The position numbers and the translations under genes are program-made. A stretch of DNA of 64,000 nucleotides from Candidatus Electronema sp. (GTDB lineage Bacteria; Desulfobacterota; Desulfobulbia; Desulfobulbales; Desulfobulbaceae). Where the stretch lies: the NCBI GenBank assembly GCA_026645415.1, contig JAPEVH010000022.1, positions 1 through 64,000 of the forward strand, in the 5' to 3' direction. The notes under the pieces were generated by a model. It worked only from the letters and a program-made list of their open reading frames with translations. It was not told where the DNA came from and ran no database searches. Shown in pieces: positions 8,024-59,074 of the stretch (positions are counted from its first letter, which is position 1; each line of letters opens with the position of its first letter).

Positions 8024-8971
8024 ATGCAAACAGAGCTAACGAAAAGCATGGATGTTTTTCCGGTAAACAGCTTCATTGATTGGCTAGAAATTGAACGAGG
8101 TTACTCAGCAAATACAGTGGAAAGCTATAGCAGGGATGTGGAGGATTTTCTTCGTAGTCTTGGCCGGAAAACAGATCTTTCTGAGGTTAACGCTCTGCAT
8201 GTGCAGCAATATCTCGCTTCGCTCTATCTGAGCAACTCGGCCTCGTCCGTGGCAAGGAAGATGTCTTCTTTACGAGCCTTTTTTCGGCACTGTCTCAGGC
8301 TGGGCCTACTTAGTACAGATCCGCTAGTAGGTTTAGCTGGGCCAAAATTACCCAAATATATTCCAATCTATCTGACCGTCGATGAGGTCTTTAGCCTGTT
8401 GGAGGAGCCGAAAAAGCAAGACAATCTGTTTCAACGGGATCGAGCAATAATGGAACTGATTTACTCTACAGGGATGCGAGTTTCTGAAGCAGCAGCAAGC
8501 AATCTAGCAGATATGGATTTTGAGGCGAGAATGATCAGAATTAGGGGCAAAGGTGACAAGGAGCGAATGGCTCCTTTTGGCAGGACCGCAGCGGAAGTCC
8601 TCCTGCAATGGCTACCTCTACGCAGCCAGCTCACTGCCGCCCGAATTACACGAGGAGATAAACCAGAACAAGCAGCACTCTTTTTGAATAGTCGAGGGAC
8701 TCGCCTAACTGCCCGCAGCATAGAACGGATGGTCGCAGCCTACGGACAACGAGCTGGGATTAGGGTGCAGGTCACACCCCATGCCCTACGTCATTCTTTT
8801 GCCACGCATCTGGTAGAAATGGGTATGGATCTACGTATGGTACAGGAGCTACTTGGTCATGCAAGCCTTTCTACCACCCAGAAATATACGCATCTTAATT
8901 TAGAACATCTAAGTCGAGTGTATGATAAGGCCCATCCTAAAGCGACTGCGCAAGGAAAAAAAGCTACTTAG
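8024..8971 (+). CDS. Tyrosine recombinase of the XerC/XerD type
   Basis: 315 residues, the usual Xer length. The N-terminal SAM-like core-binding domain (FIDWLEIERGYSANTVESYS) is followed by the catalytic domain. The six catalytic positions are present: Arg in STGMRVSEAA, Lys in RGKGDKER, His-x-x-Arg in PHALRHSFATHL, His in LLGHASLSTTQ, and Tyr in QKYTHLN. This is a chromosome-dimer resolution type rather than a phage integrase by length and layout. XerC and XerD cannot be told apart here. It converges with ctpA, overlapping it by 8 bases, and lies just after a palindrome-rich region. Confidence 0.92.
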   Translation: MQTELTKSMDVFPVNSFIDWLEIERGYSANTVESYSRDVEDFLRSLGRKTDLSEVNALHVQQYLASLYLSNSASSVARKMSSLRAFFRHCLRLGLLSTDPLVGLAGPKLPKYIPIYLTVDEVFSLLEEPKKQDNLFQRDRAIMELIYSTGMRVSEAAASNLADMDFEARMIRIRGKGDKERMAPFGRTAAEVLLQWLPLRSQLTAARITRGDKPEQAALFLNSRGTRLTARSIERMVAAYGQRAGIRVQVTPHALRHSFATHLVEMGMDLRMVQELLGHASLSTTQKYTHLNLEHLSRVYDKAHPKATAQGKKAT

Positions 8972-10217
8972 TAGAGATATGCTCTAAAATAAACAAAGCA
9001 GCACGGAGCTGATTGTCAGCAGCGAGGAGCTGTTCTTTCAGACTGGCATCTTTTTTTCCTTGTTCTTTATTTTCAAGATGGTGCAGCAGATCTTTCTCGC
9101 GGATGCTGTTCTGTTCCTCGTCGCCTTTTTCCTCTAACGGTACAACAAGATCTGGGGTGATACCTGTCTCTTGAATTGATCTCCCACTAGGAGTGCAGTA
9201 GCGAGCTGTTGTCAAGCGCAGTCCAGCTCCATCTGGCAGAGGAACTACAGTTTGGACAGAGCCTTTGCCAAAGGTTTTTGTCCCAAGGATCAGTGCTCGC
9301 TTGTGATCTTGCAGCGCGCCAGCGACAATTTCTGCTGCGCTGGCTGAACCAGCATTCACCAAGACTATTACGGAAAAATTGTATTTCTTCGTTCGAGGAT
9401 TCGCCTTAAAAAGCATATCATGCTCTTTGTCGCGACCTTTTGTTGAAACTAATACGCCTTGTTTGATAAATAAATCAGCTAATCTCACAGCCTGATCGAG
9501 TAAACCACCTGGATTGTTACGAAGATCTAAGATCAAACCCTTCAGCGGTTTTTCTTTTGCTGCCTTACCAAGAGCCTCTTTGAAATCGCGCGCCGTGGCA
9601 GATTGAAAACTGCTAATCTGTACATGCAGCAGACCAGAGCCAAGCTCAGTAGCAGTAACCGAATGCTGAGGAATAAGGCTGCGCACCAAGACAATGTCCA
9701 GTGTCTTGCCGTCACGCCCCAAAGAAAGCGTTACCTTGTCGCCGACCTTACCCCGGAGCTGTCGGATTGCCTCATTCAGGGTCATGTCTTGGGTTGGCAA
9801 ACCGTTGATGCCAAGAATTCTATCGCCGGCTTTCACCCCTTGAGCAAAGGCTGGGGTGCCGACAATAGCTGAAACTACAGTTAAAACACCATCCCGTACC
9901 GTTACTTCTATCCCTACTCCGCTGAAACTGCCGCTCGTATCTTCTTGCAGCTCCTTGAATTCTTGAGGTGTAAGGTAGGCTGAATGGGGATCCAAAGTGT
10001 TAAGCATTCCATTGACCGCCCCAATAAGCAACTCACTGCTACTGACTTTATCAACATAGTGCTTTTGCACCAAATCTAAAATATTAGCAAATGTCTCAAG
10101 ATTACTATATATTTCTGCATCAGAAGTCTGTTTGTTCTCTTTGGCAGATAGCGAACTAACAGATAATGCAGCAATAAAGGCAGTAAAAAAAATGACACGC
10201 AGCAGTAGAGATTTCAT
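8964..10217 (-). CDS. ctpA: C-terminal processing protease (S41 family) with PDZ domain
   Basis: 417 residues with a signal peptide (MKSLLLRVIFFTAFIAALSV) that places it in the periplasm. A PDZ domain (SGVGIEV, KAGDRILGINGLP) precedes the S41 catalytic part. The nucleophile Ser is in NAGSASAAEIVAGAL and the general-base Lys in GTKTFGKGSVQTV. Such proteases trim or degrade periplasmic proteins, often regulating peptidoglycan hydrolases. It is the last gene after ftsE-ftsX-envC, with 98 bases in between, so control of the EnvC-activated hydrolases is a reasonable inference. Confidence 0.93.
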   Translation of the reverse strand: MKSLLLRVIFFTAFIAALSVSSLSAKENKQTSDAEIYSNLETFANILDLVQKHYVDKVSSSELLIGAVNGMLNTLDPHSAYLTPQEFKELQEDTSGSFSGVGIEVTVRDGVLTVVSAIVGTPAFAQGVKAGDRILGINGLPTQDMTLNEAIRQLRGKVGDKVTLSLGRDGKTLDIVLVRSLIPQHSVTATELGSGLLHVQISSFQSATARDFKEALGKAAKEKPLKGLILDLRNNPGGLLDQAVRLADLFIKQGVLVSTKGRDKEHDMLFKANPRTKKYNFSVIVLVNAGSASAAEIVAGALQDHKRALILGTKTFGKGSVQTVVPLPDGAGLRLTTARYCTPSGRSIQETGITPDLVVPLEEKGDEEQNSIREKDLLHHLENKEQGKKDASLKEQLLAADNQLRAALFILEHISTK

Positions 10218-58141: not shown

Positions 58142-58168
58142 AACCGCCTCCTTGTACAGAAGACGGTT
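58142..58168 (-). terminator. Intrinsic terminator for the CAP-domain gene
   Basis: On the minus strand, AACCGTCTTCT pairs with AGGAGGCGGTT (11 bp, two G-T pairs) around a short loop, followed by ATTTTTCG. It serves the CAP-domain gene and may also stop darP transcription weakly. Confidence 0.75.
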
Positions 58169-58198: not shown

Positions 58199-58858
58199 TT
58201 AGTAGGGTCTCTGACCAACCATATTACCTGGCGGGTAATAGCTACAAACCCAGATTTGCCCGTTATCACCACAGACAGACATAGCGCAGCCTACTTCTTT
58301 GGTGGTTTTCCAGACAAGCTGCGTGTAGTGACCACATACTCCAGAACAGCTATTGGCAGCATAGTTATAGTCCTTGATTTCATTGCCCCAAGCATCAGTA
58401 ACCTCTTGCGGGCTTTTATGTTGAAAATCCCTACGACCATCAGACCAGATCAGTGGGCTAGCTTGGTAGATATTCTCACCATAACCATTATTACTGTGGT
58501 ACATGGCGCAGTTATCTTTTTTCAGGTGATCAGCCCAACCTTGGGCTATGCTTGCCAGCTTATCTGACCATTTCAACGAAGGAGAGCCAACATCAGCTCG
58601 CCAGCGATTATGCACAGACAGCATGGCAGCTTGATCAACCGTGCCCGTTCCCACATTTCCTCCTGTAGATTCAGCAGACAACGTTGGAAAAACAGGAGGC
58701 AAGGCACTGTTTTCCTCCTCAATAGCACGAGGTGCTAACATTGTTGCTTCTGGTTTTGATTGGCAGGCTGCAAGGGTGGTAAGCAACACAATTCCGACTA
58801 GAATGGTTACCTGTTGGGGAAGTTTTGTTTTTCCTCCTATAACTGTTGCAGTTTTCAT
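58199..58858 (-). CDS. CAP-domain (SCP/PR-1) lipoprotein
   Basis: 219 residues from the ATG at 58858, with AGGAGG 6 bases upstream. A lipoprotein signal (ILVGIVLLTTLAACQS) is followed by a linker and a CAP domain. CAP motifs: HNRWRADVGSPSLKWSDKLA, GENIYQAS, GHYTQLVWKTTKEVGCA and WVCSYYPPGNMVG. Six or so Cys probably form disulfides. The role of bacterial CAP proteins is not settled. The leader resembles a cyclic dinucleotide riboswitch, so expression may follow that signal. An upstream in-frame start at 58927 would lie within the aptamer. Confidence 0.88.
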   Translation of the reverse strand: MKTATVIGGKTKLPQQVTILVGIVLLTTLAACQSKPEATMLAPRAIEEENSALPPVFPTLSAESTGGNVGTGTVDQAAMLSVHNRWRADVGSPSLKWSDKLASIAQGWADHLKKDNCAMYHSNNGYGENIYQASPLIWSDGRRDFQHKSPQEVTDAWGNEIKDYNYAANSCSGVCGHYTQLVWKTTKEVGCAMSVCGDNGQIWVCSYYPPGNMVGQRPY

Positions 58859-58881
58859 AATACCCTCCTGGTATGTGGTAA

Positions 58882-58955
58882 AGCAGACAACCCGGCTATC
58901 TACTAGAGACCCGTGGCTTTCCGACACCGCCTCGCGACGATTGTGGCCTTATGCA
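58882..58955 (-). promoter_or_regulatory. GEMM-I-like cyclic dinucleotide riboswitch
   Basis: The leader RNA contains GGAAAGCCACGGGUCUC (58922-58906), matching the GEMM core of the form GCAAAGCC-ACGGGuCU. It is followed by AGAUAGCCGGGUUGUC (58901-58886), matching the 3' strand. Upstream, AUCGUC-GCGA-GGCGGU makes a 6-bp helix with a GNRA loop, as the first GEMM hairpin does. The 5' strand (AAGGCCACA) is a poorer match. The element ends about 25 bases before the CAP-gene ATG. Ligand type (c-di-GMP or cGAMP) cannot be told. Confidence 0.7.
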
Positions 58956-58961
58956 ACTTTC

Positions 58962-58986
58962 CGGTACGGAAATTTTTTTTCCGTAC
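58962..58986. repeat. Perfect inverted repeat GGTACGGAAA/TTTCCGTACC
   Basis: Ten-base arms enclose five T residues (plus strand). In the CAP-gene leader it sits immediately before the aptamer-like element, with two more short hairpins further upstream (ACCAGA/TCTGGT and GCTTA/TAAGC). Confidence 0.8.
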
Positions 58987-59045
58987 CAACCAGAAAGTCT
59001 GGTACTCTGCTTACTTAATAAGCTAAAGCAGTTCTTTCTACTTTT

Positions 59046-59074
59046 ATGGTAGGTTAAAAAAGTTGACTTGTCAA
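59046..59074 (-). promoter_or_regulatory. Sigma-70 type promoter for the CAP-domain gene
   Basis: On the minus strand TTGACA (59074-59069) and TACCAT (59051-59046) with a 17-base spacer. The transcript would start near 59039 and carry a leader of about 180 bases. Confidence 0.6.

Follow-up and report, generated by a model that had tools for sequence, protein, structure and literature searches.

Does the leader of a CAP-domain lipoprotein gene in Candidatus Electronema sp. carry a cyclic dinucleotide riboswitch and, if so, how would ligand binding reach the gene? The window considered here is the whole stretch of 64,000 nucleotides that was analysed (positions 1 to 64,000 of contig JAPEVH010000022.1, assembly GCA_026645415.1), in which an earlier note, made from the letters alone, had proposed a GEMM-I RNA ahead of such a gene. 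We give a probability of roughly 0.6 to the reading developed below, which takes the element for a translational c-di-GMP-I riboswitch with a putative expression platform 5' of the aptamer and a ligand that would turn the gene OFF.

The aptamer and the gene behind it

A cmscan of the whole window returned two Rfam matches above the curated cut-offs, one of which was the c-di-GMP-I family RF01051 (48.2 bits against a gathering cut-off of 35, E 2.3e-6), spanning positions 1-87 of the model. The covariance-model scan that the earlier note had suggested as a check was thus significant, and the two core strings it had named are in place, with the GNRA-capped helix (GCGA) and the conserved core surrounding AAAG and AGCCGGGUU. 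Judged by its aptamer class, the element is confirmed as a genuine c-di-GMP-class RNA sensor. The related models c-di-GMP-I-UAU (RF03168) and c-di-GMP-I-GGC (RF03167) belong to the same clan as the window copy. RF03168 outscored RF01051 in a 501-base scan (55.7 bits, E 2.2e-11) and stayed below its own cut-off of 65.9 bits, so the window copy is not counted as a member of that family; sister copies linked to CAP genes do reach clan cut-offs, with 66.3 bits for UAU in G053 and 59.6 for GGC in G055. The c-di-GMP-I class was found above cut-off at three places in the window genome. In the family, 41 of 73 genomes have RF01051 above its cut-off, a number that becomes 43 when E <= 0.01 is the criterion.

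The gene behind the aptamer, which starts 25 nt past it, encodes a protein with a CAP domain (PF00188, E 3.9e-24, 86.2 bits against a Pfam cut-off of 21.1) and, by eye, a lipobox-like LAAC, as expected for the CAP-domain lipoprotein previously proposed. Its nearest solved relatives by sequence were a PR-1 protein (9lyt, E 8.9e-25) and Pry1 (5ete, E 4.5e-20). CAP proteins have a His/Glu tetrad, and the expected His and Glu residues were recognized by eye in conserved blocks here, as in plant PR-1 and yeast Pry1; those proteins are eukaryotic, whereas the window protein is a bacterial lipoprotein. A second CAP gene of the window genome lies on another contig and has no riboswitch. In sister genomes, two or three CAP genes stand in tandem behind a single riboswitch (L070, L071, L073), compared with one at the window locus.

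CAP matches were obtained in 21 of the 73 family genomes, and 29 CAP loci out of 42 match rows were scanned with Rfam. The aptamer was located ahead of CAP in all four genomes of the window genus with any CAP match (G000, G053, G055, G056); the fifth, G054 (69% complete), had no CAP match. In g12, a second genus that we take as Candidatus Electrothrix, the same arrangement was present in seven of eight genomes (G057, G058, G059, G060, G062, G063, G064), the eighth (G061) having a CAP fragment only, at a contig end. No such aptamer was found at the scanned CAP loci of the nine other family genomes with CAP matches. The eleven linked genomes are not independent, G058 and G063 being very similar. 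CAP starts 20-25 nt past the aptamer in eight of the eleven; in G057, G059 and G062 the two are separated by a small ORF, and CAP starts 290-315 nt past the aptamer. The genes around the riboswitch-CAP unit differ among the species of the window genus, which indicates that the unit survived rearrangement. By computation, then, the aptamer stands in the leader of the CAP gene and the link is retained in relatives.

Candidate switch strands on both sides of the aptamer

The order promoter, leader, aptamer, AGGAGG and gene described earlier holds, with a weak promoter: such sites numbered 4, compared with 2.4 +- 1.5 in shuffled sequence, and the one found is compatible with a leader of about 180 nt. 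What that description missed is an anti-Shine-Dalgarno strand and a competing hairpin in the leader itself (Table 1). Upstream of the aptamer, CUUUCUGG has two possible partners, CCGGAAAG, with which it forms hairpin P0, or the Shine-Dalgarno (SD) sequence CCAGGAGG. When leaders are set side by side, CUUUCYGG ... CYGGAAAG precedes most aptamers of both genera. A transcription terminator was considered as the platform and rejected, as the stretch from the aptamer to the gene showed no terminator-like site on the minus strand and the one at 58958-58972 belongs to the plus strand. The leader upstream of the aptamer is, from its pairing potential, the likely expression platform.

Table 1. Features of the riboswitch-CAP locus in the window.
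Feature	Position	Strand	Basis and remarks
Promoter-like TTGACA-17-TACCAT	59046..59074	minus	Consensus scan, 10/12 matches; leader start expected near 59040
CUUUCUGG, putative anti-Shine-Dalgarno strand (A), doubling as the 5' arm of hairpin P0	58990..58997	minus	Duplex, alignment
Inner hairpin GGUACGGAAA/UUUCCGUACC between the P0 arms	58963..58987	minus	Folding
CCGGAAAG, 3' arm of P0 (B), with AAAG shared with the P1 5' strand	58957..58964	minus	Folding, alignment
P1 5' strand AAAGUUG, overlapping P0	58954..58960	minus	Alignment
c-di-GMP-I aptamer	58883..58957	minus	RF01051 match; ligand-contact positions read G20, A47, U92
GNRA (GCGA) capped helix of aptamer	58928..58939	minus	Sequence and Rfam scan
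P1 3' strand CUGCUUU	58880..58886	minus	Alignment
CCAGGAGG, Shine-Dalgarno sequence, complement of CUUUCUGG	58864..58871	minus	Duplex, alignment
CAP-domain (PR-1/SCP-like) lipoprotein, 219 aa	58199..58858	minus	ATG at 58858; PF00188
Terminator-like stem past CAP gene	58142..58168	minus	Terminator scan

Because P0 and P1 have AAAG in common, they exclude each other, and because CUUUCYGG is common to P0 and to the pairing of strand A with the SD (A:SD), these two compete as well; P1 can form together with A:SD, nested within it. With no ligand, CUUUCYGG would be held by CYGGAAAG in P0 and the SD would be less covered. Ligand binding is expected to stabilize P1 (AAAGUUG with CUGCUUU), which would take AAAG from P0 and free CUUUCYGG; the freed strand would then bind the SD, the resulting helix would enclose the aptamer completely, and the CAP lipoprotein would cease to be translated. 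The order that these overlaps predict is thus ligand, P1, opening of P0, anti-SD on SD, OFF. We infer its direction, as well as c-di-GMP as the ligand of the window copy and any physiological role.

The same parts could work with the opposite sign, the ligand turning the gene ON as P1 frees the SD from a local cover, a reading we consider unlikely. Two covers come into question, CCUG at the 3' end of the aptamer with CAGG, and a small hairpin (AUACC-AGGAG-GGUAU) of the lowest-energy fold; the CUG/CAG complementarity is indeed present in the window, and the free fold does put the SD in the loop of that small hairpin. An ON switch needs such a cover, however, and none was found to be conserved: CCUG:CAGG was dropped as a conserved cover, being absent from loci with CUUUCCGG, which have SDs such as CGGGAAG with no CAGG. 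What is conserved, moreover, is the mutual exclusion of P0 and P1, and formation of P1 frees the anti-SD strand rather than locking it.

Folding energies leave the two states of the proposed OFF switch in balance. Across 32 leaders, the forced states were nearly equal, differing by -0.1 +- 5.0 kcal/mol on average and by no more than 6 in 27 of the leaders, and the unpaired fraction of the SD was 0.35 in the P0 state against 0.03 in the A:SD state, so that the SD is open only in part in the former. For the window leader folded alone, the minimum (-55.7) is a third structure that is neither switch state, compared with -52.9 for P0, -54.9 for A:SD and -51.2 for aptamer, P1 and A:SD together.

Pairing statistics and the ligand pocket

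We collected 99 aptamer loci from the two genera. By the pattern used, the literal CUUU[CU] element was present in 83 of them and missing from 16. Nine loci, in which no start codon with an SD lay within 75 nt, were dropped and 90 tested. The duplex test was unanchored and paired 67 nt upstream with the 24 nt before the start codon. Leaders paired with their own SD regions at -14.05 kcal/mol, against -12.67 +- 0.25 for permuted pairs (0 of 5000 permutations), and on 39 dissimilar loci at -14.53 against -12.26 +- 0.40 (0 of 5000). When the 14 nt adjoining the aptamer were excluded, 1 of 5000 permutations reached the own A:SD value on the 39 loci; the effect was weaker on the 90 (83 of 5000). 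P0 was reached by none of 5000 permutations on either set, and the control pairing of the SD with arm B by 463 of 5000 (90 loci) and 1043 of 5000 (39 loci). Permutation support for P1 was weak (7 of 5000 on 90, 105 of 5000 on 39) because P1 hardly varies.

Covariation was examined in a MAFFT alignment (A1) of 32 leaders, taken from 34 dissimilar ones of at most 165 nt with a CUU[UC][CU] anchor after four odd rows had been removed (L078, L087, L108, L111) and two added (L071, L073). The A:SD pairing was formed in 87.2% of cells, against at most 61.8% in slid registers, and P0 in 94.1%, figures that the choice of anchor and rows favours in the P0 and A columns. For A:SD, 22 cells were doubly changed, compared with 10.0 +- 3.2 in shuffles (0 of 500), and five of ten pairs changed on both sides; columns 31 and 179, for instance, read U-A in 18 rows, C-G in 7, U-G in 5 and unpaired in 2 (n=32). 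The covariation score of P0 was reached by 0 of 500 shuffles, with few double changes (2 of 8 pairs, 4 cells), and P1 was paired in 177 of 192 cells with little variation. In a plain alignment of the 90 loci, restricted to rows with the letters concerned, the choice between U and C at position 6 of the element follows that between A and G in the SD (42 and 13 in the first row of the table, 8 and 17 in the second; Fisher p 3e-4), and the same holds for dissimilar loci (19 and 5, 2 and 7; p 0.005). Conserved, covarying A:SD and P0 pairings and the P0/P1-exclusive overlap thus emerge from the computation.

These numbers bear on a plainer explanation, that of an ordinary c-di-GMP-I riboswitch whose upstream hairpin serves as a stability or transcription element and whose SD complementarity is incidental. 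CUUUC is pyrimidine-rich and selection keeps the SD rich in purines, so that some complementarity to a pyrimidine tract would arise anyway, and permuted pairs also reach about -12.5 kcal/mol. Incidental complementarity would not readily account, however, for own pairs beating swapped ones in 5000 of 5000 permutations, for double-sided changes at half of the pairs or for the tracking of the SD by position 6, and a different role of the hairpin is not helped by a minus strand with no terminator-like site from aptamer to gene. We regard this explanation as quite improbable.

For the ligand pocket, we placed the Vc2 residue numbers on the window sequence, a placement that is provisional for position 92 and in part for the others. 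The window copy then has G20 and A47, and U at position 92. An A at position 20, which we take to be the mark of the cAMP-GMP-sensing GEMM-Ib, is not found in the window copy, which has G there. The ligand contacts of Vc2 are G20, A47 and C92 according to the accessible text of PMC4744006, and owing to its U at 92 the window copy is not filed with the Vc2-like pockets. In the loci, positions 20 and 47 are 27 apart, as in Vc2, which also agrees with Bc1 in the accessible part of PMC11218506. UAU and GGC presumably name residues 20/47/92, which would make the window copy GAU.

Among the 99 loci, G, A and C were read in 89 and U92 in six, the window copy included, with one locus unread. The A20 pattern hit three of the 99, of which G058:4928718 proved by eye to be a misreading; the other two are similar loci in two genomes (L084, 3564-3709 minus, and L132, 1029-1170 minus; G058:2696897 and G062:1008362). 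The window genome has 6 GGDEF domains, and a search of two g12 genomes gave 18 and 17. The pocket readings point to c-di-GMP as the probable ligand of the group and, with less certainty, of the window copy. That the window copy would sense another cyclic dinucleotide instead, such as cAMP-GMP through U92 (A-U) with G20 kept, is very improbable: U92 does recur in 5 of the 98 other loci, three of them before similar secreted proteins of 122-123 aa, but the CAP-linked copies of three sister genomes have C92, G, A and C prevail in the group as a whole and a U-G wobble could still hold c-di-GMP.

Distribution and comparison with known designs

RF01051 matches numbered 9-27 per g12 genome and 0-4 per genome of the window genus. 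A model of the layout (R1) was searched in 257 genomes of the order, with at most 12 candidates scored per genome, and in 395 of the phylum. Among the matches listed for the order, those with 82.8 bits or more came from g1 or g12 only, G238 being next at 78.5; since loci with no literal element reach about 116 bits, and one with no usable SD 89, R1 alone is no proof of the layout. At E <= 1e-15, the 395 phylum genomes returned G000 and three weaker matches, with nothing comparable to the layout outside the window genome by R1. Among 18 order or family loci and three phylum loci inspected by eye, none had a CUUUC element rightly placed before the aptamer, and most had terminator-like hairpins; in other genera of the family, such hairpins follow the aptamer in most loci inspected. 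In these comparisons, the putative 5' anti-SD layout was found only in the two genera.

Not all g12 copies have this layout. At L078 (G058:C1:4928718-4929063), three c-di-GMP-I aptamers stand in tandem and look terminator-type, at least two being followed by terminator-like hairpins, an arrangement other than that of most G058 copies. Sets of similar small secreted proteins of 122-124 aa follow the riboswitch at the g12 GEMM loci L148, L113, L084 and L132 and also at L086, L102 and L126, the last set coming from three genomes and having U92 throughout; the two proteins that were tested had no Pfam match. At L094, L097, L106, L109, L114, L124, L145 and other loci, many copies that have CUUUCCGG or a sequence like it stand before short ORFs (about 20-100 aa) whose starts resemble one another, such as MSSLFHSS and MSSTRKV. 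At L085, L092, L093, L112 and L133, different exported proteins share the riboswitch and a similar N-terminus (MKTTG..YEHRGLIAFTGAFLA), as if one cassette had been copied. Elsewhere in the window, a match to the Rickettsia sRNA Rp_sR47 (9218-9524 plus, 63.5 bits) is antisense to an ORF (8964-10217 minus) with the look of an S41-type processing protease; the match probably reflects conserved coding sequence rather than an sRNA.

A dsrA gene is present in the window genome. An enolase match was absent from all five genomes of the window genus (G000, G053-G056) and from three of seven g12 genomes searched, and present in the four remaining g12 genomes and in 16 of 16 others; the accessible text of PMC10030654 reports absence of enolase for cable-bacteria genomes. 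The enolase pattern makes Candidatus Electronema a probable genus for the window, although four g12 genomes do have the gene. We see an even chance that the cable bacteria (Electrothrix, Electronema) have a c-di-GMP-I design of their own, with a 5' anti-SD strand and P0 in about 10-20 copies in each Electrothrix genome, by which c-di-GMP would shut off exported proteins including CAP lipoproteins.

In the largely open-access literature searched, we found no c-di-GMP riboswitch in cable bacteria and no link of a GEMM riboswitch to a CAP domain; nor did the accessible texts contain a natural case of a riboswitch anti-Shine-Dalgarno strand upstream of the aptamer. Natural riboswitches are usually drawn aptamer first, with the switch after it. 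The comparative evidence here places a candidate switch strand before the aptamer, in many copies and in two related genera, and suggests a known aptamer class with a new expression-platform layout. The window copy shares with the c-di-GMP-I (GEMM-I, RF01051) aptamers Vc2 and Bc1 the fold, the GNRA-capped helix and the conserved core, and, as is the case for that class, it stands in the leader of an exported-protein gene. The platform of Bc1 lies 3' of the aptamer, with two terminators after it (PMC11218506, accessible part), whereas the putative anti-SD strand of the window lies 5' and no terminator follows.

Another known system is the translational OFF switch of E. coli tbpA (TPP), in which, as described in the accessible part of PMC11487190, aptamer and anti-P1 are in competition and the SD becomes sequestered in response to the ligand. 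The proposed window switch resembles it in both respects. The switching sequences of tbpA presumably follow the aptamer, whereas those of the window lie on both sides of it, the anti-SD coming first. In engineered OFF riboswitches, a stem covering the ribosome-binding site encloses the aptamer and the tuned bases lie upstream of it (PMC8989549, accessible part), as the aptamer would be enclosed in the proposed window switch; those designs are synthetic and respond to histamine, whereas the window design would be a natural one, repeated across a genome.
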